From the NCBI GenBank assembly GCA_003415625.1, contig PYIU01000001.1, positions 3,224,746 through 3,288,745 of the forward strand: a stretch of DNA of 64,000 nucleotides. The letters are read 5' to 3'. Made by a program: the position numbers and the translations under genes. Each line of letters opens with the position of its first letter. Position 1 is the stretch's first letter. Positions 1 to 40,720 of the stretch are shown piece by piece. The stretch is from Aquanectria penicillioides. Taxonomy: Eukaryota > Ascomycota > Sordariomycetes > Hypocreales > Nectriaceae. The notes beneath the pieces are model-generated. The model saw nothing but the letters and a program-made list of their open reading frames with translations. It ran no database searches and had not been told where the DNA came from.

Positions 1-3000
1 TGTGACCTCGGTAGCGGTAGCTGCCATATGACTGAGCTTAGAATTCTTAAATATGTTGGCAATAGTTAAGCCGATGCCACGTTGCTGGGCGAGGGAGACT
101 AGTTGGATAGCTGTAATGGAGTCGCCGCCGATTTGGAGGAAACTATGATTCTTTCCAATCTGGTCTGCGGATGTCTTGAGCAGGTCAGCCCAGATGTTGC
201 GCAGCTCAAATTCCTTCTCAGTTGTGGGCTCCACCTTCTTCTCACTGCCGAGAGCAAAGCTGTTCAATTGCTCCTGAGGAAGATCGTGTGCAAGCTCTCG
301 CAATCTCTTTCGGTCGAGTTTAAGAGACGTACCAAACGGCATCTGCTCCATCGGTAGGAAGAGGCTTGGAACCATATAGGTAGGCAGCACACGCCTCAAA
401 TCTTCAACCACAGTGCTGAGGGACTTGTGCAGAGTGTCATTCATAGTAATGAGCCACTCTGAGAGATCCTTATCAGATGTCTTTTGGCTAGTCTTCTCCT
501 CACTAAAGCTGATGAAAGCAATTACCACGTCATGAGCATTGCGGCGGATAACATCGACAGCGGCATAGGTGACTTCAGGCATAGCACGCTTGATACTGTA
601 CTCGATCTCTCCAAGTTCGACACGGTAACCTCGAACCTTCACCTGTGTATCGCGGCGGCCAAGGTATTCCATGTTGCCATTGGGAAGATAGCGAACTAAA
701 TCACCAGTCTTGAAAAATTGACGAGTGTCATCTTTAGAAGGAGACGGCAACCATTCCACGCTCTTAATAAATGATGTTTCGGTTCTGTCTTTGTCGTTGA
801 GATAGCCACGAGCCATTTGTCGTTGAACCAAAAGCTCTCCGATACATCCAATAGGGACAAGTTGCTGGTGGTTCTCTGGCTCCACAATCCAGCAAGCACA
901 GCCAAATCCTCGGCCAATTGTAGTTGGCGGCTCATCTGCAGACTTGTATACGTGGTTGGTACAAAAGACAGAAATTTCTGATGGACCGTAGGCATTGGCG
1001 ACCGTGACATGCCTATGCCATGTATCAAGAATATCCTTTGCGGGTGCCTCGCCAACAAGGATCAACAGTTTTAATGATGGGACATCAGCAGGAGTCATAG
1101 TTCTCAAGAAGGTCGAAGTTAAGAGCGCAGTGTTGACATTTGTAGCCTTGATGAATCCTGCTATGTCCTGGAGTCGTTCGGTCTCGGATGGAATGCAGAT
1201 AGTACCGCCGAAGACAAGTGTTTCGAAGATCTCACTTAGACTGACATCGAATACGTTGCTTGAGAATTGCAACACACGAGATGATTGATTGAAAGAGTAA
1301 GCTCTGCCGTGGCCAACAGTGGTGGTGCTAAGAGCTGAGTGGTCAACGAGGAAAGACTTAGGCTTGCCAGTAGATCCAGAAGTGAAGATAATGTATGCAG
1401 CGTCAGAAGGACTAGGCTTCTTGTATATGGTGTTATTTTCGGTGATTGTCGAGGAAAGCTTGGCCATAAGAGATCGAGAGAGCTCAATTATATGCTCAAC
1501 CATACCCTCGCAGGATTTATTTGTTGATGAAGACACAAGCATAAATCGAGCTTGGAGCTCGTCAATAATGCCTTGGCGTCGGCTTGTAGGGTGCGAAGGA
1601 TCAATTGGGATAAAGACACCACCGGCTTTCATAATAGCAAGCATGGCCACAACAGTCCAAGGAGATTTCTCGAAGCACAGAGGCACCATAGTCTCAGGCC
1701 TGACACCAAGATGAGAGAGATAGGTAGCCAGGATGGTAGACATGCCATCCAACTGAGAGTATGACATGCTTCCTTGGTTCGACACAATGGCCTCCTGGTC
1801 AGGTGTACGCTTAGCGCGGTCAGTGATCAAATCGTGGACACAGGCATTGACAGGCGTAGCATCGGCCGAGTTCCACTTAATAGCTTGCTGAAGGTCCCAA
1901 TCACTTGCAAGAGACAATCTAGCCAACGGAGTGTCATTTTGAAGCAGGAGCTGTTGTACAACATGGCCAAAGTGTTGGACAAGTGCAAGAAGTTGTGATT
2001 CAGTAATGACATTGGGGTTATAGATCAACGAAAGCTCAATGTGATCATCATATGTCATGCACTGAAGGACAAGAGGATAGGTAAAGTAGCCCTCGACGGC
2101 TTCTTGATCCTCAAAGAGCTCAGAGTCAGCTGATTGTAGGATGGCACCATCCGAGTCCTCAAGAGTACCCATTTTGGGTTGAATAACCAAAAGACTGGAC
2201 ATTTCACAGGCCTCCTTGGCGCTGGGACTGACTTTGGAAATGTTTCGCAGACCAAACTGCTCGTAAGTCACCATATCTGAAGCCTGTCGCTGAACATCTT
2301 CCAGAAAGCTCAACACTCCTTGCTGGCCATTGAAGCGGACACGAACAGGAACCGTAGCCACAGCGGGACCAGCCATTCGTTCGATACCTGCGACAGGGGC
2401 GTGGCGACCAGAAACTGTAGTACCGAAGCAAACATCATCGGTGTCGGAATATCGTGCAAGCACTATACCCCATGCGGCTCGAAGAATTGTAGCCTTGGTG
2501 ATTGAAGTGTGGGTCAAATCGGGGAATTGAATGCTGGCCCTCATGATTTCAGTGGCTGGCTGAGAATTCATCGCAAGCTCGAGCTTGGGGAATGTAGCTC
2601 GCTGGGCGCCATTCAGCTGCTCCTTCCAGTACTCGGCCGCATCTGCATGGTCTAGCTGGGTTGTATAGTGGATGAAGTTGGAGTAAGGCTGGAGCTTTGG
2701 TACAGACTGGCCACGATATAGGCTCTGGAGTGTGCTGAGCACGATGTTCATACTCCATCCATCAAAGATCGCGTGATGGAGGATTAGGACAAAGTGGCGA
2801 TCCTCGTTGCTCTCTGTAAGTAGGGCATAACGGCAGAGGGGAGAGCCATACTGCATCTTGAGAGTCTTAGTCGTATTCATAAAGGTGCGCAGGTCGAGTC
2901 CATCCGTAGGTTCCCATTTTACGTCCTCGCGAATAATAGTCTGTACAGTGATGGTGTCATGAGCCACGATCCTGGTGCGCAGGTTGCTGCACACCTCGAC

Positions 3001-3270
3001 AGTTTGAGTCCATGCAGCTTTAAAGAGAGATGTATCCACACTGTCAGGCAAAGTGTAGATATATTTGGCAATATAGGAGCCAGGCTGTTTAACTGCAAGC
3101 GCCATAAGACCTTCTTGAAGACCGGTACATGGATATGCGTCTTCGATGCCTTGACTAGCTGATAGCTTGCACTGGAGCTCGATCTTGGTCTTGATGCTAT
3201 CAAGGGCATCGGCTTGAAGGAGAGTGAATGGCCCAGTTTCGTATGATACAGCATCCTCAGCCTCAACAAC
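1..3270 (-). other. NRPS1 module 12 (C-A-T, T truncated by window edge), A code DVSLIVAVF
   Basis: The C domain has LILHHAIFDGW near 2755-2790. The A domain begins near 1848, with FTSGSTGKPK near 1366-1387, NVFDVSLSE near 1235, NTALLTSTF, LLILVGEAP and NAYGPSEISVFC near 980. The pocket code is D-V-S-L-I-V-A-V-F. A KLDRKRL-type A10 motif lies near 300-325. The T domain has LQIGGDSITAIQL near 115, and the frame is open through base 1, so another C domain is expected beyond the edge. Confidence 0.82.
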
Positions 3271-6200
3271 TCTGCTGGCGATGGCGAGCAGGCGAGGATC
3301 GTCAAAGATATCCTTAACTGTGATGATTAGGCCAACTTCACGAGCATGGGTAACAAACTGAATTGCAGTGATAGAATCACCTCCACTGCGCAAAAAGCTA
3401 TCATCGCGACCAATTGTCTCCTTGGGAATCTTAAGAATGGTTGACCACATTTCTTGCAGATGAAGCTCCATTGGCGTTGCCGGTGCACGCTTCTCGCTAT
3501 TGACAAGTGACTGCTTAGCCAACTGCTTGCGGTCCAGCGAGGCTATCAAGCGCTTCAGACCACCTCGGTCTAACTTGGTTGAGGTGATGGACGGCATGAA
3601 CCGACAGGGGAAGAACATAGTTGGAACCATGTAGCTGGGCAGCGCCACACTCAACTTTGCAGCAGCGGCTGTCATTTGGCGCTTCTGGTCACCAGTGAGC
3701 GGCAGGAAAATGCTTTCAGCCTGATTGGCAGCAACATTGGTGCGTGTTTCGTCATTGAAACAATAGTATGCAACGAGGCTTGTGCCTGCGTCGCCTCTGA
3801 AGATATCAACAACAACCTGTCGCACTCCGTGCAATGCCTCACGCAAGTGATGCTCAACCTCGCCAAGCTCGACTCTTAGACCGCGAATCTTGACTTGGGT
3901 ATCCCGCCGACTAACAAACTCGATAGTGCCATCAGAGTTGTAGAAACAGAGATCACCAGACTTAAAAAATCGCTTCCAGCATGGTGAGTCACGTTGAGGG
4001 GCCCATTCGGGCAATGAAGTGATAGTGGCTGCGGTGGTTCTAATAGGGTCGGCTAGGTACTCGCGCAGTAGCGTAGGGCCCTGGATGACAACTTCACCAA
4101 TGCAGCCAATTGGAGCCAGCTTCTGAGGATCATCTTCATCGACAATCCAACAAAAGCCGCCGACTGGAAGACCAACAGTTAATGGGGACTCGGTAGTGGA
4201 CTTCCATTCATGGAGGGTGCTGAACACACAAGTCTCAGCGGGACCCCATCCATTAATAAGTCTGACTTTTCCAAACCAAGTGTCAAGAATATCCTGACCG
4301 ACAGCCTCACCAGCAAGAAGCAGAAGCTCCAGACCGGGAACATCATCTGGCTTTAAGGTACGGCTGAATGCAGGAGTGAGGAAGGCCCAGTTGATCTTCA
4401 TATCACGGATGAATTGCGTAAGGCCGCTCATGCGTGTCTCTTCGGACGGCACGCAGAGTGTAGCTCCAGCAATCATAGGTCCCACAATCTCACCAATGCA
4501 GAGATCGAAGACAAACGATGCAAACTGGAGAATCCGAACACTTGGGTTCAAGCCCAGGCGCTTTCTGATAGCTGACTGACTGGTACAGACAGCACCATGC
4601 TGCATAACAAGACCCTTAGGAGTACCAGTACTGCCCGAGGTGAAAAGAACATACGCGGCATGGTCTGGAGTAACGTTGCACTCAGGAGCCGAAGCAACGG
4701 CTCCTAGTGCGTCAACTAGTTTCTTGTCCAAAACAGGGGTCAGTTCAACTACCTTAGACACCAAGTTGGAGCACTTGGCGGAGTTGGCAAGAGATGCAAT
4801 AACGAGCTGCGCACCAGTTTGCTTCACGATTTGTTGCTGGCGTTGGACGGGGTGAGAGGGATCTAGAGGTACCCACGCACTGCCAACCTTGTTAATAGCC
4901 AGGATGGCAACGAAGAACCACATTGATTTTTCAAAGCAAACGTGGACAAGGTCGCCAGGGGAGACACCTGCAACATCGATCAAGTAGTGAGCCAGTCTGT
5001 TGGCAGCATTGTTGAGTTGAGAGTAGGTCAATTGGCCATCCCAAGCATCAATTGCAAGGGAGTTGGGTTGGCGTCGTGCATGCACTTCAACAAGCTCATG
5101 GACGCAGGCGCGGATGATTTCAGGTGCATTTCCGTTGTGCTCGACAGCCTTCTTTAAGTCCCATTCGCTGGCAACTTGGACGCTGCTGAGTTGAGCTTCA
5201 TTTTCCGCGAGGAGTTGCTGTACCACATGACCGAAGTGCTGAGTGAGAGCAACGAGCTGGTCCTCGGAGACTGAAGTAGTGTTGTATGTAAGCACCAATT
5301 CAATGTGGCCGTCATACGTGAAGCCTTGCATGACTAAGGGGTATGTAAAGTAACCTTCTGCTGCTTCTTCGTCTTGATAAATGTCGGCACCCGCAGAGAG
5401 AAGCAGAGCATCTTTTCCATCGCCGGCAACATGCTGGACAGGCTGGATGACCAACAAGCTGGAAAATTCACAAGCGTCTCTAGCTTCGGGACTCAGCTTG
5501 GAAATGTTTCGCAAACCAAACTGTTCATATGAAACCATGTCTGAGGCTTGTTGCTGCACATCCCGCAAGAGGTTAGAAACAGTCTGCTCCTTATCAAGGC
5601 GGACCCTAACGGGAACAGTAGCGACAGCTGGACCAGCCATCTTTTCGATGCCGGCGACAGGTGCATGGCGACCTGATACAGTTGTACCAAAGCAAACGTC
5701 GTCAGTGTCGCAGTATTTGGCAAGTACCATGGCCCAAGCAGCTCGAAGGATAGTGGCCTTGGTGATCGAGGAGTCTGCGATCTTACCAAAGTTAATCTTC
5801 GTCTTCATGATGCGGGTCAATCTCTTCACATCAGTGATGGCATCAGCCCGGGGAAATGTGGCGCGCTGAGCCCCATCTAGCTGAGACTTCCAGAATATTC
5901 CTGCTGCAACCTGGTCAATCTGGGTAGTGTAGTTGATAAAGCTGGAGTAAGGCTGGAGCTGAGGCACAGCAACACCTCGGAAGACGTTATAGAGAACACT
6001 GAGCGCAACATTCAAGCTCCACCCGTCAAAAACGGCGTGGTGAATGATGAGAACAAAGTGATGTTTTCCATTGGCTTCTTTGACAATCGCATAGCGGCAA
6101 AGCCTGGAGCCGTATTGCATCTCCACTGACTTCATGCTGCTCATAAAAGCGCGCAGGTCCAGGCCATCAGTTGGTTCCCATAATGCTTGCTCTTGAATGA

Positions 6201-9200
6201 TACCTTGCACTGATGCGCCCTCGTGAGCCACAATCCTTGTACGCAAGTTGTCGCACATCTGCACTGTTCTCTCCCAAGAGACGCGGAAGCGTTCAATGTC
6301 GATATCGTCAGGCAGACGATAAACATTCTTTGCAATGTAAGAGCCATGCTGCTTGACCGCTAGGGCCATGAGACCTTCCTGAAGGCTTGAGCAAGGATAA
6401 GCATCCTCAATGATATCCTCCGTGGCAAGCTTGCACTCCTCCCGGATTGTGGTCTTGAGCGTCTTAACATCACGACTTGGAATCATCTCAAAGGGTGCAG
6501 TGTTGTACGACTGGCCTTCTACATCCTCGCTAACCTTTGCAGCGACTGCAAAGAGGCGAGGATCAGCAAAGACATCATGGACAGTAATGTCCATGCCAAG
6601 ATCTCGACCGATGGTGACTAGTTGAATAGCTGTGATGGAGTCACCACCGAGCCCCATGAAACTGTCGTCCCTGCCAATAAACTCAACAGGGATGTTCAAG
6701 ACATCTGACCACATCTTCTGCAGACGAGCTTCCATCTCCGTCTCCACAGCTTGCTTTTTACCACTGACGAGGGAGTATTTTGCAAGTGATTCCTTGCCAA
6801 ATGTTGCGGTCATCGTACGAAGTGCCTTTCGGTCCAGCTTGGCAGAGGTGGATGAAGGAAGATATCTGCAAGGAATGAAGAGTGTAGGGACCATATAACG
6901 AGGCAGAACTGAGTTCAGGTATCCAATCATGGTGGTGATCTTGCCTTCTAGCTCAGAGGTTAGGGGCAAAAAGACGTCCTCAGCAATGATCTTGGATTTG
7001 TCGCTTGGCTCGCTACTATTGTCATTAAAGGAGAAGTAGCCAATCAAGTTTGAGCCAGCGTCGGATCTAAAGACATCGACAACAACTTGTTCAATGTCCT
7101 CAAGAGAAATACCAACTTGGTACTCAACTTCTCCCAACTCAATACGGAGACCACGGATCTTGACCTGGGTGTCCTTTCTTCCGATATACTCAATAGTACC
7201 GTCGAAGTTATACCGGACGAGATCTCCAGTCTTGTAGAATCTAGGCTCATCACCATTTGACAGAGTAGGAACAAGTTCCACGCCATCGATGAAAGATGCT
7301 TCAGTTCTAACAAGGTCGTTAAAGTATCCGCGAGCGAGAGTTGGTCCTTGGACGACTAGCTCGCCTACGCAACCGATTGGAGCCAGCTGGGTATGATCTT
7401 CGGAATCAACGATCCAGCATTTAGCGTTTTGGCTGCGACCGATAGTTGTGGGCGATTCAGTGCGAGACTGGAAGATGTAAGAGCAGCAAACAACGCAAAT
7501 TTCTGTGGGACCATATGCGTTGATAAGCTTAACGCGTCCGAACCAAGCCTCAATATTGTCTCTTGCCAGGGCTTCTCCACCAAGGACCATGGTATCCAAG
7601 GTTGGAACGTCATCTGGGTTCAAGGTTCGAGCGAATGAAGGAGTAAGCATGCCAACTGTGACCTTGCCATCATTGATGAACTTGGCAATGTTTGACAGGC
7701 GCTCCTCATCAGAAGGCACACATACAGTGCCTCCAAAGGCCAGAGGGGTGAATATCTCGCAGACGCTGCCGTCAAAGACGTAGTTGGAAAATTGAAGGAC
7801 TCTAGAGTGAGGTCCAAAGCCATAGACATTACCATGGCCAATGACGCTAGAGCATAGTGCAGCCTGCTCAACAACGACACCCTTTGGTTTACCAGTTGAA
7901 CCAGAAGTGAAGAAGACATAAGCAGCATTCTTAGGGCCAGACTTGGACAAAAGTTTCTCACCGCCGAAGGTAAGCTTGGGCAGCGAAGAGATCATTGAAG
8001 AAGAGACAGTAATCACATTATCGACCAGGCCGGCGAACGGAGTGGACGTAAGAGATGAGGCAAGGACAAAGCGAGCCTGTACCTCTTTGATGAGTGCTTC
8101 GCGACGGCTGATAGGGTGCGAAGGGTCAAAAGGAAGGAATGCGCCACCGGCCTTCATAATAGCCAACTGAGCAACGATTGTCCAGATAGACTTCTCGAAG
8201 CAGATGGGCACAATCATTTCCGGCAGAAGTCCCAGATCAATAAGATAGATTGCAAGCTGAGTGGACTTCTGCTCTAGCTCAGCGTAAGTCAGACTGGCTT
8301 CACGAGAGTACAGGGCCTCACGATCCGGAGTCTCTAGGGCCTGTCTTGAAATCATGTTGTGGACACAATCAGATCTCAATTCAGTGATCTTTTCCTTGTT
8401 CCATTTTGCAACTTGCTGAGCATCCCAGGGGCTAGTGAAGGAAACTTGGCTCAATGGTGCATCGCCAGCTGCAAGAAGTTGGAGGACAACATGATCGAGA
8501 TGGTTTGAGAGAGCCTCAAGCTGCAGCTTGGGTACCGCAACCGAATTGTAGGTGAACACAAGTTCGACCTTCTGCTCGTGGGTCACGGCTTCCACAATTA
8601 AGGGATAAGTGAAGTAACCCTCCAGTGCCTCATTCTGACCAAATACAGCCGTGTTAGCAGGGAGCAAAACAGCTTCATTATCGTCAACCGAAGAACCCAT
8701 ATGCTGCACAGGCTGAACGACCATTAGACTAGTGAACTCGCAGGCATCCTTGGCATCGGCGCTGAGTTTGGAAATATTGCGCAGACCGAATTGTTCATAA
8801 GGCACCATCTCAGTTGATTGTTGCTGAATTTCTTTGAGGAAGCTGGACACAGCCTTTTCTTGATCAAGACGTACGCGAACCGGTATAGTTGCGACTGCAG
8901 GTCCAGCAATGCGATCGATGCCAGCCACAGGAGCGTGACGGCCAGATACTGTAGTACCAAAGCAGACATCATCAGCATCACTGTATTTTCCAATTACCAT
9001 CGCCCAAGCGGCACGCAAGACAGTAGCCTTAGTTATTGACGCATCGACCGTCTTGGGGAAGGCAATTGTTGACTTCATCACGCGAGTTACAGTTTCTGAA
9101 GTCGCTGACATGTCGACTCGAGGGAACGAGGGAGGGTGGGCACCAGCAAGCTGGGTCTTCCAGTATTCACCAACCTCAACGTCATCGAGCTGCGTGGTGT

Positions 9201-12200
9201 AGTTGATTAGGCTAGAGTATGGCTCTAAAGAAGGGGCAGAATCGCCTCGGTATAGCTTGATCAAGGTACCGAGGACAATATTCAAGCTCCAGCCATCAAA
9301 GACCGCGTGGTGGACAGTTAGCACAAAGTGATGCTTGCCGGTCTTTTCGGTAACAATGGCGTAGCGGCAAAGCCTTGAACCGTACTGCATCTCCATAGTC
9401 TTGACGGCGTCCATAACAGAGCGAATATCACGGTTTTCCGTATTTTCCCAAGAAGCCGGCTCGCGAATAACAGCCTGGATGGATACTCCGTTTCGAAGCA
9501 CGATTCTGGTACGCAGGTTATCGCATAGATCGATTGTCTGCTCCCATGCGGCCTTGAATCGAGGGATATCAATGTTTTCGGGAAGGCTGTAGATATACTT
9601 GGCGATATAAGAGCCAGGCTGCTTAACTGCTAGGGCCATAAGACCTTCTTGGAGAGTAGTGCACGGATAAGCATCTTCGATGAGTTGCTTGGGAGCTAGA
9701 TGGCATTGGTTTCGGACATTAGTCTTGACTAACTCAACATCTGTGCGTCTAAGAAGGCCAAATGGTTCAGTTTTATAGGTCTTCCCACTGCCAGAATCGG
9801 TGGCGGTAGCGGCCATTTGGCTGAGGCGAGGGTCTTCGAAGATCTTGGCGATGGTGAGGCTAATTCCGTGCTTCTGGGCAATGGAGACTAGTTGAATAGC
9901 AGTGATAGAGTCGCCACCAATCTGGAGGAAGCTGTCATTCTTGCCAATTGACTCAGCTGATGTCTTGAGGACAGTGGCCCAAATATCGCGAAGCTTGAAC
10001 TCCATTTCCGTCGTTGGCTCAACCTTTTCCTCGCTGCCAAGGGCGAAGCTGTTAAGACGGTCTTGTGGGAGGTTATTAGCAAGATCCCGAAGTCTCTTGC
10101 GGTCAAGCTTTAAGGATGTTCCAAACGGCATAGCCTCAAGAGGCAGGAAAAGGCTTGGAACCATGTATCCTGGCAGACTACGCTTGAGATCATTAGAGAC
10201 AGTGGCGAGTTTCTTGTGAAGGGCATCGTCGATGGAAAGTAGCCATTCCGAGATGTCCTTGACATTAGTCTTTTTGCTTATTTCCTTTTCGCCAAAGCTA
10301 ACGAAGGCAATGAGAGCCTCACGAGACTCACGTCGGATAACGTCGACAGCGGCATAGGATACCTCAGGGAGCGCGCGCTTGATGTTGTACTCAATTTCGC
10401 CAAGCTCCACACGGTAACCGCGAACCTTAACTTGAGTGTCTTGTCTTCCAAGATACTCTATAGTGCCATCAGCAAGATATCGAACTAAATCACCAGTCTT
10501 GAAGAACTGGCGGGTGTCGTCAGCAGATGGGGAGGGCAACCATTCAACAGCCCTAATAAATGAGTCCTCAGTCCTCTCAACATCATTCAAATAGCCTCTA
10601 GCCATCTGTCTTTGCACAAGAAGCTCACCAGTGCACCCAATCGGAGCAAGGCGGTTATAGTTATCAGGCTCAACAATCCAGCAAGCACAGCCAAATCCTC
10701 TTCCAATGGTCGTCGGTGGCTCATCAACCGACTTATACACATGGTTAGTACAGAAAACAGAAATTTCTGATGGACCATAAGCGTTAGCGACTGTGGCATG
10801 GCCGTGCCATGCTTCCAGGATGTCCTTTGCAGGTGCCTCGCCAACAAGGATCAACAGCTTTAATGATGGGACATCAGCAGGAGTCATAGTTCTTAAGAAG
10901 GTTGAAGTTAAGAGCGCCGTATTGACATTTGTAGCCTTGATGAATCCTGCTATATCCTGGAGTCGTTCGGTCTCAGATGGGATGCAAATTGTGCCACCAA
11001 AAACAAGAGTCTCGAATATTTCGCTCAGGCTAACATCGAAGATGTTGCTAGAAAACTGCAACACGCGGGACGATTCATCAAAAGAATAAGCCCTTCCATA
11101 TCCAACTGTAGTAGTGCTGAGAGCCAAGTGGTCAACAAGGAATGACTTTGGCTTTCCAGTTGACCCTGAGGTAAAAATTATATAGGCAGCATTAGAGGGA
11201 GTTGGCTTCTGGTGGATGATATGGTTTCCTGTAATAGTTGACGAGAGTTGGGACATAAGCGATCGAGATAGCTCAATCACATTCTCGACCATGCCATCGC
11301 ACGATTCTTTTGTTGTAGGTGATACAATCATAAAGCCAGCGTCAATTTCATTGACAATAGCTTGACGGCGGCTTGCGGGGTGAGAAGGGTCAATCGGGAT
11401 AAAGACACCACCAGCCTTCATGATGGCAAGCATAGCAACAATAGCCCATGGTGATTTCTCAAAACAGAAAGGCACCATTGTTTCTGGTCGAACACCAAGA
11501 TGGGAAAGGTAGGTGGCAAGGATCGTAGACATACCATCCAGTTGGAAATATGACATGCTACCTTGCGAAGACAAAATAGCCTCTTGATCAGGAGTGCGTT
11601 TAGCACGAGCAGAGATTAGGTCATGTACACAGGCATTGACCGGTTTGCTGTCCGCAGTGTTCCAAGCGATTGCTTGTTGTAGGTCCCAGTTGCCAGATAA
11701 TGACACTGAGGCAACAGCAGAATTCCGATGTGAGAGTAGCTGCTGGATAACACTCTCAAAGTGGTGGGACAAGGCTCGGACTTGGTCATCAGATATAGAG
11801 GCGGGGTTGGAAATCAACGACAGACCCACATGATTAGGGTAAGTCGAGCATTCAAGAACCAGTGGGTAAGTGAAGTAACCTTCTAACGCTTCCTGTTCTT
11901 CGAAGATGTTCGACTCGGGCAGGAGAAGCATAGCATCCGCACCGCCATTGGCTGAAGCAATATGCTGAACAGGCTGGATGACAAGCAAGCTAGAAATCTC
12001 GCATGCCTCCTTGGCATCTGGACCAAGCTTTGAGATGTTGCGCAGACCGAACTGCTCGTGAGGAACCATCTCAGAGCCCTGTTCTTGAATCTGTTCGAGG
12101 AAGCTCAGAATGTCCTGCTCACGGTCGATGCGTACACGGACCGGAACAGTAGCAACGGCTGGTCCAACCATTGATTCAACTCCAGAGACCGCAGCTTGAC

Positions 12201-24200: not shown

Positions 24201-27200
24201 CAGTACTGCCAGAAGTGAACAATACATAAGCAGCATGGTCAGGAGTTACACCAGACACTGGCGCCTTCGGGGAGCCCAGTTTGGCAATCAGCTGCTTGTC
24301 AAGCTCTGTAGTAACCTCAACAACATCCTTTACCAAGCTGGCGCACTTGGCGGCGTTGGCAGGCGACACCAAAGCGAGATGAGCCCCGGTTTGCTTCACA
24401 ATCTGTTGCTGGCGCTGGGTAGGGTGAGAAGGGTCCAGAGGCACCCAAGTAGCACCGGCCTTATTGATAGCCAAGATGGCGACAAAGAACCACTTTGACT
24501 TCTCAAAACAGACATGGACACAATCGCCGACTTGAACCATGGTCTCAAAAATCAAGTAGCATGCCAGCCTGTTTGCTGCGATATCAAGTGCGGCATAAGT
24601 CAGCTTCCCATCCCAGGCATCGATGGCAAGAGCGGCAGGCTCGCGCTGGGCCTGTTCCTCGATAAGCTGGTGGACACAAGCGCGAATGATCTCGGGGTTT
24701 TCGCTATTGTACTCAATACCCTTGTCAAGATCCCAGCCGCTCACGATGGACACAGTATCCATAAGTCTATCGCTAGGCGCAAGAAGCTCCTGCACAGCAT
24801 TTTCGAAATGGTTGGAAAGCGCTTCTAGCTGAGCCTTGGGGATGATGTTTGAGTTGTAGATAAGAAGAAGCTCAATTCTGCCATCATGGATAATACCTTG
24901 AAGGACAAGGGGATAACTGAAGTATCCCTCCAGCGACTCTTCATCCTGTTCGTTGGACTCGACTGGAAGCAAGACTGCTTCGCTGTCACTGCTGGAAGTC
25001 AGCGCATGCTGAACCGGCTGGATAACGAGCAAGCTGGAGAAGTCACAAGCTTCCTTGGCCTGGGTGCCGAGCTTGGTGATGTTGCGGAGGCCAAACTGCT
25101 CATGTGGAACCATCTCAGAAGCTTGCTGTTGCACATCGTTCAAGAAGCTTGACACGGCCTTTTGCTTGTCAAGACGGACTCTAACTGGCACAGTCGCAAC
25201 AGCTGGGCCAGCCATCTTATCCACGGCAGCAACAGGTGCATGACGACCAGACACAGTTGTGCCAAAGCAAACGTCATCGGTATCGCAGTACCTTGCGAGC
25301 ACAATAGCCCAGGCCGCACGCAAGACAGTAGCAGTTGTTATGGAGCTCTTTATGGACTTGGGGTACGCAATAGTCTTCTTCATAATGCGGGGCCCCTGGG
25401 GAGAGTCGCTGGTGTCTGCCTGAGGGAATGTGGCGCGCTGAGCGCCTTCAAGCTGTGCGTTCCAATACTTGCCTGCGGCCTCCTGATCAATCTCGGTAAT
25501 GTACTTGATGAAAGTGGAGTATGGTTGAGGAGAGGCAGCAGCTCGATCAAAGTAAAGATTGCAAAGAGTGTGGAAGGCCACGTTCAAACTCCAACCATCG
25601 AAAGCAGCGTGGTGGATGATGAGGACGAAGTGCAATTTGTCGCTGTCGTCAGACACAAGAGCGTAACGGCAGAGTCTGGAACCGTATTGCATCTCCGTGC
25701 CCTTTGCGGATTCCATGAACGACTTCAAGTTCAGGCCTTCCATAGGCTCCCAAGCAGGGGCCTCTTGGATCATGGCTTGCGTCGAGACGCCGTTTCGAAT
25801 CACGATCCTTGTGCGCAGGATACCGCAGAGCTCGACCGTGCGGTCCCAGGCTGCCGTGAACCGGGAAGCATTGATATGATCTGGCAGGCGGTAGATGTTC
25901 TTGGCGATATAAGAACCGGGCTGCTTAACCGCAAGGGCCATCAGGCCTTCCTGGAGACTGGTGCAAGGGTAGGCGTCCTCAATTGTTTGCGAGCTGTTCA
26001 AGCGGCACTGATCCTTAATAGTGGTCATTATTTCCTCGATTTCTGTTGTCGGCAACATGCTGAAGGGTTCAACCTCAGAAGATTCAATTTCTTCCTCCTC
26101 AACGGTCTTAGCTGCAACGGCAGACAAGCGGGGATCAGCAAAAATATCCATGACTGTAACCGCCAGGCCAGCCTCGCGAGCCATATTGACGAATTGAATA
26201 GCGGTGATAGAATCACCACCAATGCGCATGAAGCTGTCGTCACGGCCAATGGAATCCGTGGAGATGTTCAGAATTGTCGCCCACATCTCTTGAAGGCGAA
26301 TTTCCATGGGCGTAGTAGGGGCGCGCTTCTCGCCTTCTACCAGAGAGTACTGAGCCAAAGCCTCTTGGTTGAGTGTGGCTGCGAGGCGCTTGAGACCACC
26401 ACGATCGACCTTGGTCGAAGTGATAGTTGGCATAAATTGGCAAGGGAAGAACATAGTTGGAACCATATAGCTTGGCAACTCGACACTCAGCTGGCTCGAC
26501 GCAGCCATGGCCTGGCTCTTGAGTTCATCGGTAAATGTAAGGAACATGCTGTCAGCCTGGTCGACACCAACATTGGTACGAGTGTCGTCACCGAAGCAAT
26601 AGTATGCCGCGAGACTGGCCCCAGAATCTCCCTTAACCACATCAACCACAACTTGTTGAACACCCTCCAATGCTGCACGAAGGTGATACTCAACCTCGCC
26701 CAGCTCAACACGGAGACCGCGGATCTTGACTTGGGTATCTTTTCGGCTGACGAATTCAATCATGCCATTGGCATTGTGGAAGCAAAGATCGCCAGACTTG
26801 AAGAAACGGTTCCAGAAAGGCTGGGTTCGCTTGGGAGCCCAAGCAGGGAGTGTTGTGACGGTGGCGGCCTGGGTCTTGGCAGGGTCTGCGAGATACTCAT
26901 GAAGTAGAGTCGGGCCTTGGATGACAAGCTCACCTACACAACCTGTGGGCGCCAGTTTCTTGGGGTCCTTAGGATCGACGATCCAACCAAAGCCTCCGAC
27001 TGGTCGACCAATAGTGAGCGGCGACTCATCAGCAGATGTCCACTCATGGATGGAACTGAAGACGCAAGTCTCAGCAGGTCCCCACCCGTTAAACAAACGG
27101 AGCTTTCCAACCCAAGACTCGAACACGTCTCGGCTGACAGCTTCACCAGCGAGAACCAGGTGCTTGAGAGTAGGAACGTCCTCTGGCTTTAAGGTACGCG

Positions 27201-30200
27201 CGAAGGAAGGAGTAAGAATTGCTGCATTAGCGCCTTTCTCATTCATGAACTTCTCGAGGCCGTTCATACGAATGGCGTCAGAAGGTACGCACACAGTACC
27301 ACCACACATTAAAGGAGCAACAGTCTCGCCAACACAGAGATCAAAAACGAATGAGGCAAACTGCAGCATCTTGACGTCCGATGTCAGACCCAATCGCTTG
27401 TTGATGGCAGTCAAACCTGAGCAAATAGCACCATGCTGAATGACGAGACCCTTAGGAACACCAGTACTTCCAGAAGTGAAAAGAACATAGGAGGCGTGGT
27501 CTGGTGTAACATTGCATGCTGGTGCAGCAGGGTATTGGCCCAGCTTGCTAATCATCTGCTCGTCAAATGAAGCCGAAACCTCAACGACGTTTGCGGCCAG
27601 GTCAGTACAGTTGGTGGCGTTGGTGGCGGAGGCAAGGACCAACGAGGACCCAGTTTGCTGGACAATCTGTTGGAGACGCTGAATGGGGTGAGAGGGGTCC
27701 AATGGCACCCAGGCAGCTCCAACCTTGTTAAGAGCAAGCATAGATACAAAGAACCAGACCGACTTCTCAAAGTAGACAGGAACAAGATCACCCATCTTCA
27801 CTACAGAAGATTTGATGAGATATTGGCCGAGTCGGTTAGCAGCGTTGTTGAGCTGGGAGTACGTTAATTGACCATCCCATGCATCGATCGCTATGGCCTT
27901 GGGTGATCGCTTTGTCTGCTCTTCAATAAGCGTATGGACGCAGTTGCGAACGACCTCCGCCTCTTCCCAGTTAGAATCAACGGCTTTGTCAAGATCCCAG
28001 TCGGTGGCAATTGAAATGGAGCCGAAGGGGACATTTGACTTTGTAGCGAGCTGCTGAACGGCATGGTCAAAGTGATAAGACAGAGCTTCAACCTGGGTTT
28101 CAGGGATAATATCAGGGTTGTAACTGAAAAGAAGCTCGACGGTGTCATTGTTTGTAAATCCCTGCAGAACCAATGGGTATGTGAAGTATCCCTCCAACGA
28201 TTCCTGTTTATTGGACTGTTCGGATTCATCCGACACAAGAATCGCGGTTGAGGGATCGGTTTCCGAATTCATGTGCTGCACCGGCTGGATGATGATCAAG
28301 CTGGAGAAGTCGCATGCTTCCTTCGTGGCCGAGCTGAGCTTTGAGATGTTGCGCAGACCAAATTGTTCGTGAGCAACCATCTCAGATGCCTGTGTCTGGA
28401 TGTTTTCAAGGAACCTGGACACGGTCTGGGTGGCTTCGAGGCGCACTCTAACAGGAACAGTAGCCAAGGCCGGCCCGGCCATCTTGTCAATGCCGGAGAC
28501 AGGGGCCTGGCGACCGGAGACCGTGGTACCAAAGCAGATATCTGTGGTATCAGAGTATCTTGCAAGAATCATAGCCCATGCCGCACGAAGAACTGTTGCC
28601 TTTGTAATGGAGTTGTCAGTAGAGCTGGGGAACTGGATCTTCTTTTTCATTGTGGCGTTGGCAGAACCAGAATCGGATACAGTATCCATACGAGGGAATG
28701 TAGCTCGCTGTGCACCCTCCAGTTGCTCACTCCAGTACCTGCTGGTCTCCCCCACGTCGAGCTTAGTAGTGTAGTTAATGAACTTGGAGTATGGCTGCAG
28801 TGCTGGAGTGGACTCGCCACGATAGAGGCTGGATAGAGTGCTAAGAATCACATTCATACTCCAGCCATCAAAAATTGCGTGGTGGATGATAAGGACAAAA
28901 GAACGCGTGCCACTCTTCTCGCTCACAAAGGCGTATCGGCAAAGGGCGGAGCCATATTGCATCTCCAGATTCTGGGTCGAATCCATGAAAGAGCGAAGAT
29001 CATGGCTCTCAGTGGTTTCCCATGCTGCTCCACGGATAACAGCCTGGTACGAGACACCGTTATGGTTCACAATCCTAGTTCGCAGGTTGCCACACAGCTG
29101 AATCGTTTGATTCCAAGCCGTTTTAAAACGAGTACCATCAACATATGTGGGGATAGTGTAAACATATTTGGCGATGTAAGAGCCAGGTTGCTTAACCGCA
29201 AGAGCCATAAGACCCTCTTGAAGACTTGTGCAAGGATACGCGTCATCGATGTCAATCTCACCTGAAAGGCTACACTGGTCTCGGATAGCCCTCTTAATCT
29301 TGCCAGCCTCACTGCTTGGAAGGAGCCTAAATGGCGCTGCATTATAGGTCTCCTCCTCTAGACCCTCGATCATCTTCGCAGCCACAGCCCACAAACGAGG
29401 ATCGGCAAAGACATCTTTGACAGTAATGGCCAACCCAGCATTATTCGCCGAGGTAACAAATTGAATCGCAGAGATGGAGTCTCCTCCAATGCGCAAGAAG
29501 CTATCATCTCGGCCAATCGACTCCGCCGAAATCTTGAGAGCCGATGCCCACAACTCTTGAACACGGGACTCCATTGGGGTGGCAGGCGCACGCTTCTCGC
29601 TATCGACGAGCGAGTACTTAACCAAAACCTCTTTTCCAAGGGCGGCTGTCATGCGCTTAAGTCCACCTCTATCAAGTTTGGTTGAAGTAATCGAGGGCAT
29701 GAAGCGGCAAGGGAAGAAGAGAGTGGGAACCATATAAGATGGAAGCTCCACACCAAGCTGACCTGCGGCTGCCAACACCACACTCTTAAGATCAGCAGTC
29801 AGCGGAAGGAAGAGGCTATTATCTTCATTGTTAGAAACTGCAGTATTGAGGTTGCGCGTCTCGTCACTGAAAGAAAAGTATGCAACAAGACTAGGGCCGG
29901 CATCTCCCTTTAGAACATCGACGGCAACTTGTCGCACACCCTCCACTGCGGAGCGGAGATGGTGTTCGACTTCACCCAATTCAACTCGGAGACCACGAAT
30001 CTTGACCTGGGTATCCTTGCGGCTTACGAATTCGATAGTACCATCTTCGTTATAGTAGCACAGATCACCAGACTTGAAAAATCGGTTCCAGCCTGGACAG
30101 GCACGTTGAGGAGCCCACTCAGGAAGCGAGGTGACTGTTGCGTTTTTGGTGATGATAGGGTCGGACAAGTATTCGCGCAATAGGGTCGGTCCCTGGATGA

Positions 30201-33200
30201 CAACTTCTCCGATGCATCCAGTTGGTGCAAGCTGATGCGGGTTCTGAGGATCAACAATCCAACATTTGCCACCTACAGGTCGTCCTACAGTCTGAGGTGA
30301 CTCGACTGTGGACTTCCATTCGTGAAGAGTACTGAACACACAAGTCTCAGCAGGTCCCCAACCAGTGACCAGGCGCAGCTTGCCAACCCAAGTCTCAAAT
30401 ACATCCCGACCGACAGCCTCACCAGTAAGGAGAAGAAGTTCAAGACCGGGCATATCCTCTGGCTTCAAAGTGCGAACAAAAGCAGGAGTCAGGAAGGCCC
30501 AGTTGATCTCCATCTTATTGATAAACTCCTTAAGGCCACTCATACGAGTATCTTCGGAGGGGATACACAATGTAGCTCCAGAGATTAAAGGCGCGACGAT
30601 CTCACCGATACAGAGATCGAAGACAAAAGAGGCGAATTGGAGAATTCTAACCTGCGAAGTCAAGCCAAGCCTCTTAGCAATGGCAGTCTGACTGGTGCAC
30701 ACAGCGCCATGTTGCATAACCAAGCCCTTAGGAGTGCCAGTACTTCCAGATGTAAATAGGACATAGGCAGCGTGATCAGGAGTTGCGTTGCACTCTGGGC
30801 TAGGTGGGGACGAGCCTAGAGTTCGGATAAGTTGCTGGTTAAGGTCGGCAGTCACTTCAAGTACATCAGCCACCAAGCTAGCACACATTCCTGCATTTGA
30901 TGGAGACGTGAGAGCAAGACGAGCTCCAGTCTGGCCCACGATCTGCTTTTGTCGCTGGGTGGGATGAGATGGATCCAATGGAACCCATGTAGCGCCAGCT
31001 TTATTGATCGCAAGCATAGAAACGAAGAACCAAACAGACTTCTCAAAGCACAAGTGCACAAAGTCGCCAGTCTTAATATAAGCAGCATTAACCAGGTGGG
31101 ATGCAAGTCGATTAGCTGCCGAGTTAAGCTGAGAGTAGGTCAGGTTGCCGTCCCAAGCGTCAAGAGCAATAGCATCAGGTCGGCGGATGGCTTGTGCCTC
31201 AAACAGCTCATGGAAAGTGGTGCGCAAGATTTGAGGGTCCTCTTCGTTGTACTCAAAGGCCTTTCCAAGGTCCCATTCGCTAGCAAGCGAAAGAGCACTG
31301 AGCTGGGCGTCTTGTTGGGTGAGCAGCTGCTGAACTGCACTGTTGAAGTGATATGACAGCGCTTGGATTTGGTAGTCAGGAACAACCTCCGGGTTGTAAA
31401 CAAGGAGGAGCTCAATGTGGTCATCGTATGTCAGACCTTGGACAACTAGCGGGTATGTGAAGTAACCTTCCAATGCCTCCTCTGCATACAGTTCAGAGGC
31501 CGAAGAGAGCAACATTAAGTCTGTCTTGTCGCAGACAGTAAACTCGTGCTGAGCTGGCTGAACAACTAACAAGCTAGAAAATTCACAAGCCTCTTGGACC
31601 TCGGGGCTGAGCTTGGAGATATTACGGAGACCAAACTGCTCAAACTCGACCATATCAGACGCTTGCTGTTGGATATCTTGAAGGAAGCTAGAAACCGGCT
31701 GGTGGCCGTCGAGTTGCACTCGAATAGGAACAGTGGAGACAGCAGGACCAGCCATTCTATCCACACCAGCCACAGGTGCGTGACGACCAGACACAGTTGT
31801 ACCAAAGCATATATCATTACTGTCGCAGTATCGAGCGAGTACCATTGCCCAGGCAGCGCGAATGATGGTTGCCTTTGTAATAGAGTTGTCAGTTGTCTGG
31901 GGAATCGAAATATCAGTCCTGACAACACGGCTTGCAAGGCTTGAGTCAGATGTAATATCAGCTCGGGGGAAGGTAGCGCGTTGAGCTCCGGACAGCTGAC
32001 CCTTCCAGTATGCACTGGCTGCGTTGTGATCAACCTGTGCAACATACTTGATAAAGTTAGGGTAAGGACGGAGAGCCGGGAGAGACTCGTCCTTGTACGC
32101 GCTATACAATGTGCTGAGGATAACATTCAAGCTCCAACCATCGAAGATTGCGTGATGGGCCATGAGCATAAAGTATTTCTCTCCACTAGCTTCACTAATA
32201 ATAGCGTAGCGAGTGAGACGAGATCCATACTGCATCTTCATCGACCTCGCAGAGTTAAGGACGGAGCGTAGACTAAGGCCATCTGTAGGCTCCCAAGCTG
32301 ATTGCTCGCGGATAACAGTCTGGATGGTAATACCGTCCTTGACGACAATTCTAGTTCTTAGGTTACCACAGAGTTCAAGAGTGCGACCCCAAGCAGCCTT
32401 GAATATAGGAATATTGACATTGTCGGGTAGTCGATATATGTTTTTGGCAATGTAAGATCCAGGTTGCTTAACCGCCAGCGCCATAAGACCCTCCTGGAGG
32501 CTAGTGCAAGGATAAGCGTCCTCAATGTCCTGTGCACTTTCAAGCTTGCACTGGTCTTGGATGGTTGACTTAAACCCTTCAACTTCATCAGCGGGCAGCA
32601 AACTGAACGTCATCAATTCCTGTGATTGAGTGCTCTCGTCTTCGATGACCTTAGCAGCAACAGCCGACAGTCGGGGATCGGCGAAAACATCCTTAACAGT
32701 GATCATCAAGCCTTTATCCCTTGCAGCAGCGACAAACTGAATGGCAGTAATGGAATCTCCACCAATTCGCATAAAACTGTCGTCTCGGCCAATCGAGTCA
32801 ACGGGGATCTTTAGGGTGGATGCCCACATTTGTTGAAGGAGGACTTCCATATGCGTTTCCGGTGCGCGCTTTTCGCTGTCAACAAGAGAGTATTGAGCAA
32901 GGAACTCCCATGTTAGAGCAGCTGTCAAGCGCTTGAGCCCACCTCTGTCCAGCTTGGTCGAAGTAATAGATGGCATATATCGGCACGGGAAGAACATTGT
33001 GGGGACCATGTAACTCGGCAATGCAATGCTTAGATGTCCGGCTGCTGCAGTAATCTGGCCCTTGAGATCAGCCGTAAGTTGAAAGAAGACGCTTTCAGAG
33101 TCATTCTCAATGTTTCCAGTAGTTGTTCGAGTCTCGTCAGAGAAGCAAAAGTAGGCTACCAGGTTGGTACCGGCATCACCCTTAAAAACGTCAACGACTA

Positions 33201-36200
33201 CTTGCTTAACACCGTCCAAAGAGGCGCGAAGGTGATGCTCCACTTCTCCTAGCTCCACACGAAGACCTCGGATCTTAACTTGAGTATCCTTACGGCTAAC
33301 AAACTCAATGGTGCCATTAGTGTTATAAAAACAGAGATCTCCAGATTTGAAGAATCGCTTCCAGTGAGGAGAGGTACGGCGCGGCGCCCACTCAGGGAGT
33401 GATGTAATAGTGGAAGCGGCAGTCCTGACTGGGTCTGCCAAATATTCTCGCAGCAAGGTAGGACCTTGAAGAACCACTTCGCCAACGCACCCGGTAGGAG
33501 CCAGCTTCTGAGGGTCCTCAGGATCAACAATCCAGCAAAAACCTCCCACTGGACGACCGACCGTAAGAGGAGACTCATCTGCAGACGCCCATTCGTGAAG
33601 AGTGCTGAACACACAAGTCTCAGCTGGTCCCCATCCATTGATAAGTCTAACCTTGCCGAACCAAGTATCAAGGATATCGCGGCCAACCGCTTCTCCAGCC
33701 AAAAGCAAGAGCTCGACTGCAGGCATATCCTCCGGCTTCAAAGTACGGGCAAATGCTGGAGTGAGGAACAGCCAATTGACCTTCATATCGTTTATAAATT
33801 CCTTCAGTCCACTCATACGAGTGTCTTCAGACGGAATGCATAGTGTTGCACCAGCAATCAGAGGTCCGATAATCTCACCAATACAGAGATCGAAGACAAA
33901 CGAAGCAAATTGAAGGATCCTCACACTAGGAGTAAGACGAAGTCGCTTCCTAATGGCAGTCTGACTGGTGCAAACAGAACCATGCTGCATAACCAAACCC
34001 TTAGGAGTTCCAGTACTACCCGAGGTGAAAAGAACATATGCAGCATGATCAGGAGTTACGCCACAGACTGGAGCAGAAGGAGTGCGTCCAACATTGACAA
34101 TCAGCTGCTTATCAAGGCCTTCCGACACCTCAATAACATTAGCGACCAAGTTAGCGCATTTAGCGGCATTAGCGGGCGAGGCGAGCGCTAAACGAGCACG
34201 GCTCTGCTGAACGATCTGTTGTTGTCGTTGGACAGGGTGTCCGGGATCCAAGGGTACCCAGGCACCACCAAACTTATTAATGGCCAGCATTGAAACAAAG
34301 AACCAGACGGACTTCTCAAAGCAAACATGGACCAGGTCTCCGGACTGAACACAGGCGGCTTTAATTAGGTAGTGAGCAAGTCTGTTTGCAGCAGCATCCA
34401 ATTGAGAATAAGTCAGTTCACCATCCCAAGCATGGATTGCAGTTGCATTAGGTTGAATCTTAGCCTGGACCTCAACAAGCTGATGGACTGTGCTGCGAAT
34501 AATCTTAGGATCCTCAGGGTTGAAGTCCGTAGCCTTTAACAAATCCCATCTGCTTGTAATAGACAATGCACCAAGAGGCGCATTCTGCTTAGCAATAAGC
34601 TGCTGAATAGTGCTATCGAAATGGTGAGACAGGGCAAGTAGCTGGGCTTCCGGTACAAGGGCGGGGTTGTAGATAAGGAGTAGCTCAACATGGTCGTTAT
34701 AGGTCAGACCCTGCAGAACCAATGGGTAAGTAAAGTAGCCCTCTAAGGCACCCTCTTCCTCATACTGCTCAGAACCATCTGCAACCAAGATTGCCCTAGA
34801 AGAATCACTTGTATTGGCCAGCTTTTGCACAGGCTGGATAACCAACAAGCTGGAAAAGTCACAAGCGTCCTTTGCATTAGGTCCAAGCTTAGAGATATTG
34901 CGCAGACCAAACTGCTCATATGTTGACATCTTCGATGCTTGCTTTTGAACATCTTCGAGGAAGCTGGAGACCTCCTGTTGCTTGTCAAGGCGAACGCGCA
35001 CAGGAACAGTAGCAACAGCCGGTCCAGCCATTTTCTCAATGCCGGCGATAGTGGCTTGACGGCCAGATACAGTAGTGCCAAAACAAACATCATCCGTATC
35101 GCAGTACCTGGCGAGGACGATAGCCCAGGCAGCACGGAGAATGGTTGCTTTAGTAATGGCAGTATTGGCCAGCTTGCTAAAGTGGATGTTTGTCCTCATC
35201 ACGCAACTGGCCGGGATGGTAGTAGCTGCGGTATCGGTGCGAGGGAAAGTAGCCCGCTGAGCTCCATTGAGTTGATCCTTCCAGTATGCACCAGCCTCAG
35301 CCTGATCCAACTGCGAGATATGGTTGATAAAGGTTGAGTAAGGCTGGAGCTCCTGGATGGGCTCCTTGTGATATGCGCTGTAAAGGGTTTCCAGGATGAT
35401 GTTCAAACTCCAACCATCAAATATAGCATGGTGAATAATAAGCACAAAGAATCGCTCTCCGCTTGCTTCCTTCACAAGGGCGTAGCGACAAAGCTGCGAG
35501 CCATATTGCATCTTAGAGGCCTTTGCAGAGTCCAATACTGTTCGCAGATCCAAACCCTCAGTAGATTCCCAGGCAGGCTCTTCTCGTACAACCGCTTGGA
35601 GCGAGATTCCGTTTAAGGTAACAATCCTGGTGCGAAGATTATCGCAGAGCCCCATTGTTTTCTCCCAAGCAGCCTTAAATCGCACAGTGTCAATGTTTTC
35701 CGGAATGCGGTAGAAGTATTTGGCGATGTAAGAACCGGGCTGCTTAACAGCCAAGGCCATGAGACCTTCTTGGAGGCTTGTGCAGGGGTAGATATCTTCA
35801 ATGTCTTGCTCGCTCGCCAGACCACACTGGCCACGCACGGTCGACTTGATAGTCCGGAGCTCACTGCTTTGCACCAGGCTGAAGGGAGCAGCCTCATACG
35901 TCTCTCTCTCCTCGTCCGCGATGGCCATCGAAGCCATGTGGCTCAGGCGAGGGTCCTCAAAGACATCTGCGATAGTAAGGCTGATGCCCTGTTGTTGTGC
36001 AAGCGATACGAGCTGGATTGCTGCAATAGAGTCACCGCCAATCTGGAGGAAGTTGTCGTTCTTTCCAATCTCCTCTGGTGACACATGAAGGATCTGCGCC
36101 CACATATCCCGTAGCTTCAACTCCATCTCTGTTGTAGGCGGCTCAGTTTTGACTGCTCCAAGAGAAAACTTCAATACATCAGGAGTAGGAATGCTGTGGC

Positions 36201-40522: not shown

Positions 40523-40720
40523 TGTCCCCGGATCGGAAGCGTGCAGCTAGAGTTCGTAATGTGAAATATGATTCTTAAAGATAAAATAAAAATGGCGAGG
40601 AATGTGTAAAGCGACACAAGAGGTCGATGGGAATCTATTTCGAAGCTGCTGAGTGTAGAGAGAGGGTGGTGTAGAAAGTGCGTTGCAGTAAAAGTGTTTG
40701 CGATGAAGAAACAGCTTCGG
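40523..40720 (-). promoter_or_regulatory. NRPS1 5' leader with pyrimidine-rich tract
   Basis: Reading toward the gene, a C/T-rich stretch (minus strand ACCACCCTCTCTCTACACTC, about 40652-40671) is followed by an AT-rich segment around 40560-40600 and then ATG 40522 in the context GGACAATGG. Pyrimidine tracts ahead of the start site are common in filamentous-fungal promoters. No TATA box or named transcription-factor site is convincing. Weak call. Confidence 0.3.

Follow-up and report, generated by a model that had tools for sequence, protein, structure and literature searches.

The locus analysed here raises the question of why the substrate codes of a fungal nonribosomal peptide synthetase (NRPS) recur at every third module, what such an order would make and how it came about. 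The window, a stretch of 64,000 nucleotides from Aquanectria penicillioides (GenBank assembly GCA_003415625.1, contig PYIU01000001.1; C1:3224746-3288745), belongs to a 53.8-Mb, 13-contig genome, and its flanks were read as well. Introns, the 13-module synthetases and TqaL are in keeping with a filamentous fungus. Four NRPS genes lie within about 260 kb, A and B with 13 modules each and C and D with 8 modules each. As the best explanation of the whole we lean, with some reserve, toward split 13+8 peptaibol lines with an α-α-β residue order that arose without recent block copying.

In window coordinates, where negative values precede its first letter, NRPS A (about -4633 to 40522, with 1..40522 inside the window) and its paralogue NRPS B (50201 to about 95466) are both on the minus strand and were read from open frames and motifs. 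In each, 13 modules precede a condensation (C) domain at the C-terminal end. NRPS C (about -72107 to -45827; open frames and Pfam) and NRPS D (159968 to 186122; by eye), both on the plus strand, have 8 modules, open with an adenylation (A) domain and close with a reductase. The reductase of C matches PF07993 and scores above the cut-off of a thioester-reductase model, and that of D was judged by eye from motif and sequence. The locus thus has the C-terminal reductase of peptaibol synthetases, in C by Pfam and in D by eye, and many modules of the condensation-adenylation-thiolation (C-A-T) order with A domains of the α-aminoisobutyric acid (Aib) type, among 42 modules in the four proteins. A Tex1-like N-terminal starter of ketosynthase, acyltransferase and acyl carrier protein (KS-AT-ACP) was not found on A or B, and no KS-AT was seen on the NRPSs. 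The N-termini of A (38010-40522) and B (about 92839-95466) are unusual loading ends, composed of a truncated A domain (C-terminal lobe only), a thiolation (T) domain and then a C domain (a half-C-like stretch), which are perhaps charged in trans by a polyketide synthase (PKS). The first exon of A matches PF00668 and PF00550; one intron lies near 37.95-38.00 kb in A and B has one too, the start codon and joins of A being judged by eye.

Nine pocket residues were taken at fixed positions from the excised A domain of every module, numbered by what we take to be the corresponding stretch of GrsA. The anchors flanking the pocket coincide in all 42 A domains, so the codes are read uniformly across the modules, and the 11 codes given for modules 2-12 of A in an initial annotation were all reproduced identically. 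Along the minus strand, module 1 (35905..37782; A and T, with its C domain mostly in the upstream exon) has the code DILFIGICC. It is followed by module 2 (32629..35904; DLGFLAGVF, Aib-type), module 3 (29353..32628; DLGFLTGVF, type of Aib or isovaline (Iva)) and module 4 (26086..29352; DLGIVAGVF, a variant of the Aib type). The next triplet comprises module 5 (22819..26085; DLGFLAGVF, Aib-type), module 6 (19570..22818; DVSLIVAVF, proposed to take β-alanine) and module 7 (16312..19569; DVGFVAGVL), whose C, A and T domains are all nearest to those of B13, the C and A pairs being seen in trees also. Then come module 8 (13045..16311; DLGFLAGVF, Aib-type), module 9 (9784..13044; DVSLIVAVF, proposed β-alanine) and module 10 (6514..9783; DGCMVGAVV, on the non-Aib side of the A-domain tree), and finally module 11 (3250..6513; DLGFLAGVF, Aib-type) and module 12 (1..3249; DVSLIVAVF, proposed β-alanine). 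The first triplet position is therefore constant (2, 5, 8 and 11), the second is DVS from module 6 on (6, 9 and 12), and three modules measure about 9.8 kb by their coordinates, all as first annotated. Module A13, outside the window, has DLGFLAGVF again, and codes beginning with DLG account for 23/42 across the four proteins.

We take DLGFLAGVF-like codes as Aib/Iva because such A domains fall in the Aib clades of peptaibol-synthetase A domains described in parts of PMC4517408 and PMC4946873, to which the code DLGFLAGVF itself presumably belongs, and because the locus holds TqaL, a TqaM relative and a haloacid dehalogenase (HAD) hydrolase of the TqaF kind. The A domain of module 1 is joined to those of DVLFCGLIC modules from Trichoderma proteins (approximate likelihood ratio test (aLRT) 100; nine relatives in the tree) and is taken as proline-type, on the assumption that DVLFCGLIC belongs to the proline-only 'Clade 3' described in an excerpt of PMC4517408. 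A literature search on four of the pocket codes found no paper.

The period-three substrate order in the line is real, and it comes to the fore when the proteins are joined. Codes were binned into classes, same-class pairs at multiples of three were taken as the statistic and the module order was permuted. With statistic and class bins both set after the codes had been seen, and with a presumed pairing of A or B with C or D, the register is not significant within a single protein (p 0.072 in A and 0.069 in B) and gives p 0.021 in A+C, 0.019 in B+C, 0.0005 in A+D and 0.00045 in B+D. In the joined line, Aib-type codes occupy positions 2, 5, 8, 11, 14 and 17, plus 20 with D, and the DVS code occupies 6, 9, 12 and 15, plus 21 with D. 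That the period is a coincidence of an Aib-rich composition and a handful of DVS modules would agree with the single-protein p of about 0.07, but we regard it as very improbable in view of the joined lines (p 0.0005 to 0.02) and of P0012, a separate protein of another source with DVS-type modules at 2 and 5, that is, three apart.

According to the initial annotation, a second synthetase continued the register as X, Aib, DVS, DVG. These four are modules 10-13 of the paralogue B, which has its own N-terminus. The window holds only its end (50201..64000, minus strand; most of module 10 to the terminal C domain), and B was mistaken for a continuation of A; as a separately encoded upstream 13-module paralogue, it is ruled out in that role. 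The register is instead carried on by C and D, both of which lie beyond the window, in the order set by the proposed joining. The i, i+3 order claimed from the codes holds, and the amphipathic helical face derived from it hinges on helix geometry. For the DVS positions 6, 9, 12, 15 and 21 the resultant is 1.0 when each residue turns by 120 degrees and 0.20 when it turns by 100 degrees, so that they align on a 3-10-like helix and scatter around an α-helix; β residues would shift the geometry further.

In the proposed line, a 13-module starter (A or B), ending in a C domain and a basic tail, would pass on a chain of 13 residues. The finisher (C or D), with 8 modules, starts with an A domain and would extend the chain and release it by reduction. 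The product would be a gichigamin-like 21-residue peptaibol with an Aib/β-Ala/X (α-α-β) repeat, the DVS positions most likely carrying β-alanine. Whereas the 13 and 8 modules were counted, their working together is suggested by end domains and charges. The C-terminal tails of A and B read KKR...KKR, with +8 (A) and +10 (B) in the last 18 residues, and the stretch before the first A domain has a charge of -6 in C and of -5 over the open frame in D. Of the listed relatives that likewise start with an A domain, the two for which a head charge was taken have -4 (P0001) and -5 (P0012). Several observations weigh against this arrangement. Counted by eye, the head of D would carry -3 or 0 should translation begin at the first or at the second in-frame ATG. 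Among internal linkers, the 18 matching the search pattern span -4 to +2. With the start codon of D and this linker range the acidic heads are a weak indication, so docking is proposed only, and the pairing of A and B with C and D is likewise a presumption. In addition, frame breaks occur in A near its start and end (40166-40546 and 38010-40304; about -3980 to -3880) and twice in B (81639-81854; 94731-94948), one of them in a run of eight T, and may be assembly errors or gene damage.

In work attributed to Du et al. in 2017, gichigamin A is said to contain β-alanines in a repeating α-α-β motif. The gichigamin synthetase NPT2 of Tolypocladium sp. Sup5-1, as described in an excerpt of PMC11610996, has 21 modules over two genes with 8 and 13 modules. 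The present lines would be akin to it in kind, sharing by that description, if the proposed joining is correct, the 8/13 split of 21 modules over two genes. It differs in order, since NPT2 has a KS-AT and the 8-module part on the N-terminal side, ahead of the 13 modules, whereas here the 13 modules come first and the 8-module proteins bear the reductase. It also differs in that the present locus shows no KS-AT on the NRPSs, a separate reducing PKS and two paralogous pairs in one locus. None of the 120 proteins listed, the longest of 7935 aa, is named NPT2. The leucinostatin synthetase LcsA of Purpureocillium and TOPH_08469, as far as they are covered in parts of PMC4946873, share Aib modules, a β-Ala module, a terminal reductase and PKS genes in the cluster; the pocket likeness to them rests on one presumed relative, P0061. 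They differ in having 10 modules in one protein, a single β-Ala and no register. Tex1/Tex2-type synthetases of Trichoderma share the Aib-type and DVLFCGLIC-type A domains and the terminal reductase (by Pfam in P0006, P0022 and P0026). They differ in being one protein and in that no α-α-β register is known among them, and Tex1 starts with KS-AT-ACP (PMC11610996, excerpt).

Among the relatives, P0001 (JGI, 7708 aa) is 54% identical over the 5000 residues searched. It resembles protein C in starting with an A domain behind a DSSDEEE stretch and in the code order.-DVS-DVG-U-U-U-., and differs in that its gene model ends before any reductase. P0008 and P0012 are two NRPS proteins with DVSM-type modules, perhaps on one contig, and, P0012 being A-first, they are maybe another split line.

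Whether the repeat is α-α-β depends on the DVS code, and we consider it fairly probable that DVSLIVAVF stands for β-alanine. Codes were compared with 1042 codes in 187 proteins among the matches listed (2015 and 432 were found); 17 relatives were cut into modules and 13 were used in the tree with P0061. By BLOSUM62 similarity to DVSLIVAVF, the code DVAMVVAMF of P0061 ranks 5/1042 among the listed codes and first outside the DVS lineages. P0061 is a Purpureocillium protein with a reductase end and a module order fitting the leucinostatin synthetase, in which A9, the module before the last, takes β-Ala (LcsA; PMC4946873, in part). The pattern DV.[LM][IVL]VA.F, drawn up afterwards, fits 6/1042 listed codes, five of them in P0001, P0008 and P0012 and one in P0061. 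An ordinary α-amino acid at the DVS positions, which would make the product a normal α-peptaibol in which one residue recurs every three positions, strikes us as possible and clearly less probable. It agrees with the location of the DVS A domains on the non-Aib side of the tree and with four unrelated codes (P0004, P0027, P0096 and P0246) that differ from DVSLIVAVF at only three places, against four for the P0061 code. Other details also count against β-alanine: the P0027 code DVGFLVAVF scores 30 in BLOSUM62 versus 31 for that of P0061, the whole-A-domain tree neither joins nor clearly separates the P0061 module and the DVS clade, and P0061 was called leucinostatin-like from module order and reductase only, its fourth A domain being garbled. 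The ordinary-residue alternative is opposed by the BLOSUM62 pocket match to the P0061 slot, by a decarboxylase gene in the locus and by the gichigamin precedent.

The region between B and D (C1:3352657-3376232; window about 127912-151487) contains a reducing PKS, a short-chain dehydrogenase/reductase, a decarboxylase of the glutamate decarboxylase (GAD) family, a TqaM relative and TqaL, which are candidates for providing the NRPS lines with building blocks and acyl starters. TqaL (C1:3375078-3376232) matches PDB 7eeh with E 1.5e-136, and no second PF10014 match turned up in the genome. Its best sequence matches stand at 77% and, in Cylindrodendrum hubeiense, at 76%. The TqaM relative was tested at C1:3371305-3371859 and may extend into a frame that reaches 3372570; its match to PDB 9m09 (TqaM; E 1.3e-87) ranks after that to an unnamed class II aldolase, 9n43 (E 1.8e-92). 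The HAD hydrolase of the TqaF kind lies at C1:3218134-3218832. Parts of PMC12192607 and PMC11880133 describe the roles of TqaL, TqaF and TqaM in Aib supply, and some of these three genes may sit elsewhere in other producers (PMC12192607, in part). The closeness of TqaL and the TqaM relative to solved structures adds the Aib supply genes to the peptaibol-synthetase traits of the locus, and these two would supply Aib. The HAD protein, which falls below its own NCBIfam cut-off (107 versus 125), is a less specific indication than TqaL and TqaM. PF00282 has seven matches in the genome; the one that lies in the locus is the GAD-family decarboxylase (C1:3367047-3368855), and its nearest relatives are glutamate, cysteine-sulfinate and GADL1 decarboxylases. 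It lies far below every NCBIfam cut-off, including that of aspartate 1-decarboxylase PanP (149 versus 606 bits); it is therefore only a candidate for β-alanine supply. In an excerpt of PMC4946873, dtxS4 is proposed as the β-alanine maker for destruxin, with which the locus decarboxylase may be compared. The separate reducing PKS occupies C1:3352657-3360822.

As to how the pattern arose, it had been attributed to recent growth by duplication of three-module blocks of about 9.79 kb. This is not supported, because synonymous sites are near saturation, the C-domain trees are mostly positional and the DNA matches fall almost wholly in A domains. The comparisons used an alignment of 41 modules, B04 being excluded because of a frame break, so that B is counted with six Aib-type modules in the Aib-only comparison. 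Recent tandem blocks would be alike in C, A and T at the three-module offset with low synonymous divergence, and such likeness was not found. The agreement at four-fold sites averages 0.323 in C, 0.334 in A and 0.342 in T domains at a random expectation of 0.29, and thus no whole module pair is recent. In a self-comparison at an offset of about 9.8 kb, a DNA signal is present as had been expected, but it is not spread over the block. Offset 9789 has 51 shared 20-mers, every one inside A domains, namely those of modules 9 and 12, and the 42 at offset 19575 likewise all fall in A domains, those of modules 5 and 11. At offset 9786, modules 6 and 9 share ten in their A and four in their T domains. 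When all offsets are pooled, shared 20-mers pair A domains in 149 cases, C domains in 41 and T domains in 11, with 4 elsewhere.

At the protein level, identity at multiples of three is higher than otherwise in protein A for the A domains (63 versus 52%, p 0.013) and the T domains (62 versus 54%, p 0.045). Among the Aib modules of A, no signal between in- and off-register pairs is seen in C (58.9 versus 59.0%) or T domains (68.4 versus 69.7%), and that in A domains is not significant (76.0 versus 72.1%, p 0.146); the Aib-only register signal is likewise not significant in B and in the four joined lines. Because the Aib modules alone show no significant register excess, we regard the period-three likeness of A and T domains as an effect of class.

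The trees are quick trees without bootstrap, in which the terminal C domain of A (A14) is represented by a 234-residue piece, and in three approximately unbiased (AU) tests the free search missed better trees. The C-domain tree joins A and B by position at 2, 3, 4, 5, 8, 9 and 11 (aLRT 97-100), at 10 (aLRT 80) and at the terminal C domain (aLRT 93), the exceptions being A06 with A12 and B12, A07 with B13, and A13 with D03. For C domains, the groupings {A02,A05,A08,A11} (p 3e-83), {A06,A09,A12} (p 0.034) and {A05,A08,A11} are rejected by AU, and these rejections speak against duplication after the split of A and B. For A domains, AU does not reject {A02,A05,A08,A11} (p 0.389) and favours {A06,A09,A12}. 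A domains being alike within a protein and C domains by position matches the prediction of concerted evolution of A domains. The domain phylogenies named in the initial annotation as its test bear it out in part: the DVS modules cluster, while modules 2, 5, 8 and 11 do not stand apart from the other Aib modules. The C domains of modules C08 and D05 are remote, with at best 37 and 40% identity to others and 58% to each other; they retain HHxxxDGW, and each precedes a DGAMVGAVD A domain.

Some of the C-domain results run against purely positional descent, and they bring in an older origin, in which blocks of two or three modules would have been duplicated in register before the A/B split, with traces that outlasted later divergence in the DVS and DVG modules alone. 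Substrate class, too, is reflected among the C domains, with nine DVS rows together (aLRT 86), which makes whole-module class identity old; those of the DVG/DIG modules 7, 13, 16 and 20 group as well (aLRT 93), and A07 is closest to B13 in C, A and T. The AU tests on C domains spare {5,8,11 of A+B} (p 0.152) and slightly favour {6,9,12 of A+B}, and over all modules the C domains show a small excess at multiples of three (58.5 versus 57.7% in A, order-permutation p 0.050; 58.8 versus 57.8% in B, p 0.036). However, the Aib modules keep no memory of the register in C, A or T, the C domains of A05/B05 join those of A03/B03 (aLRT 92) and those of A02/B02 join A04/B04 (aLRT 88), and {2,5,8,11 of A+B} is rejected for A domains (p 0.009), though conversion blurs these. 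On balance such ancient blocks seem to us rather doubtful. The reading that we prefer would have old module classes and C domains that mostly stay in place, with short tracts swapped by conversion between A domains of matching specificity.

Short tracts of near identity are present. Against a null in which synonymous codons were redrawn (four draws for exact runs, ten for near-exact tracts), the 41 modules contain 6 exact runs of at least 38 nt, all in A domains and all between Aib-type modules; none occurred in the four null draws, whose longest run was 36. Near-exact tracts (at least 60 nt with at most 2 mismatches) also number 6, all in A domains and within the same class (B08/B11, D03/D06, A09/A12, B03/B05, A05/A11 and C02/D08), and none occurred in the ten draws. 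The longest exact run, of 203 nt between B08 and B11, covers the A3-A4 region (59288..59491 in B11, identical to 69086-69289 of B08 outside the window; minus strand), and its four-fold sites agree at 39/40 inside the tract and at 5/13 and 5/24 outside. Module 5 of A shares 53 identical nt (23953..24006) with module 11 (4378..4431), and module 9 shares 71 nt with at most 2 mismatches (about 10822..10893) with module 12 (about 1033..1104; the last two placed by hand), all on the minus strand. The 9.79-kb DNA signal described initially consists of such tracts. Matched to the alignment by hand, the near-exact tracts cover one or more pocket residues in five cases and none in the sixth, C02/D08.

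Gene conversion would account for these tracts. B05 has the code DLGFLTGVF of the B03 type where A05 has DLGFLAGVF; its A domain falls with those of A03 and B03 (aLRT 99), while its C domain stays with A05. The B03/B05 tract adjoins and does not cover the residue that distinguishes the B05 code from that of A05. A stronger version, that the starters A and B, alike in their ends as are the finishers C and D, combine freely with these to give four 21-residue products and that conversion of pocket patches actively maintains the register, appears unlikely to us. If it were true, copying between A domains of like specificity would be mostly at multiples of three modules; five of six tracts are in register, versus 134/271 of the same-class pairs, which is suggestive and not significant.

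Other features stand apart from the lines. Between A and B lies a probable remnant of a Tc5-type transposase (44193-45589), with PF03221 in 44193-44528; beside this, no family matched 44750-45589. An open frame of 581 aa antisense to modules 4-5 (25162-26907, plus strand) is best taken as a coding shadow. Beyond D, the minus strand (L026:1-9999) has several very long open frames made of cysteine-rich repeats, CTDDGNCASTQICQFGNC for instance, and Rfam gave no match above thresholds in the window.

If the proposed line is correct, a 21-module synthetase that sets β-alanine into each third place would make in nature the α/β-peptide helices that are otherwise built by chemists as foldamers, and its candidate supply genes sit in the same locus. 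For the re-programming of NRPSs, the locus may be instructive in that selector patches of about 50-200 bases have apparently been edited with the condensation domains left in place, a patch editing that resembles the A-subdomain exchange attempted by engineers.

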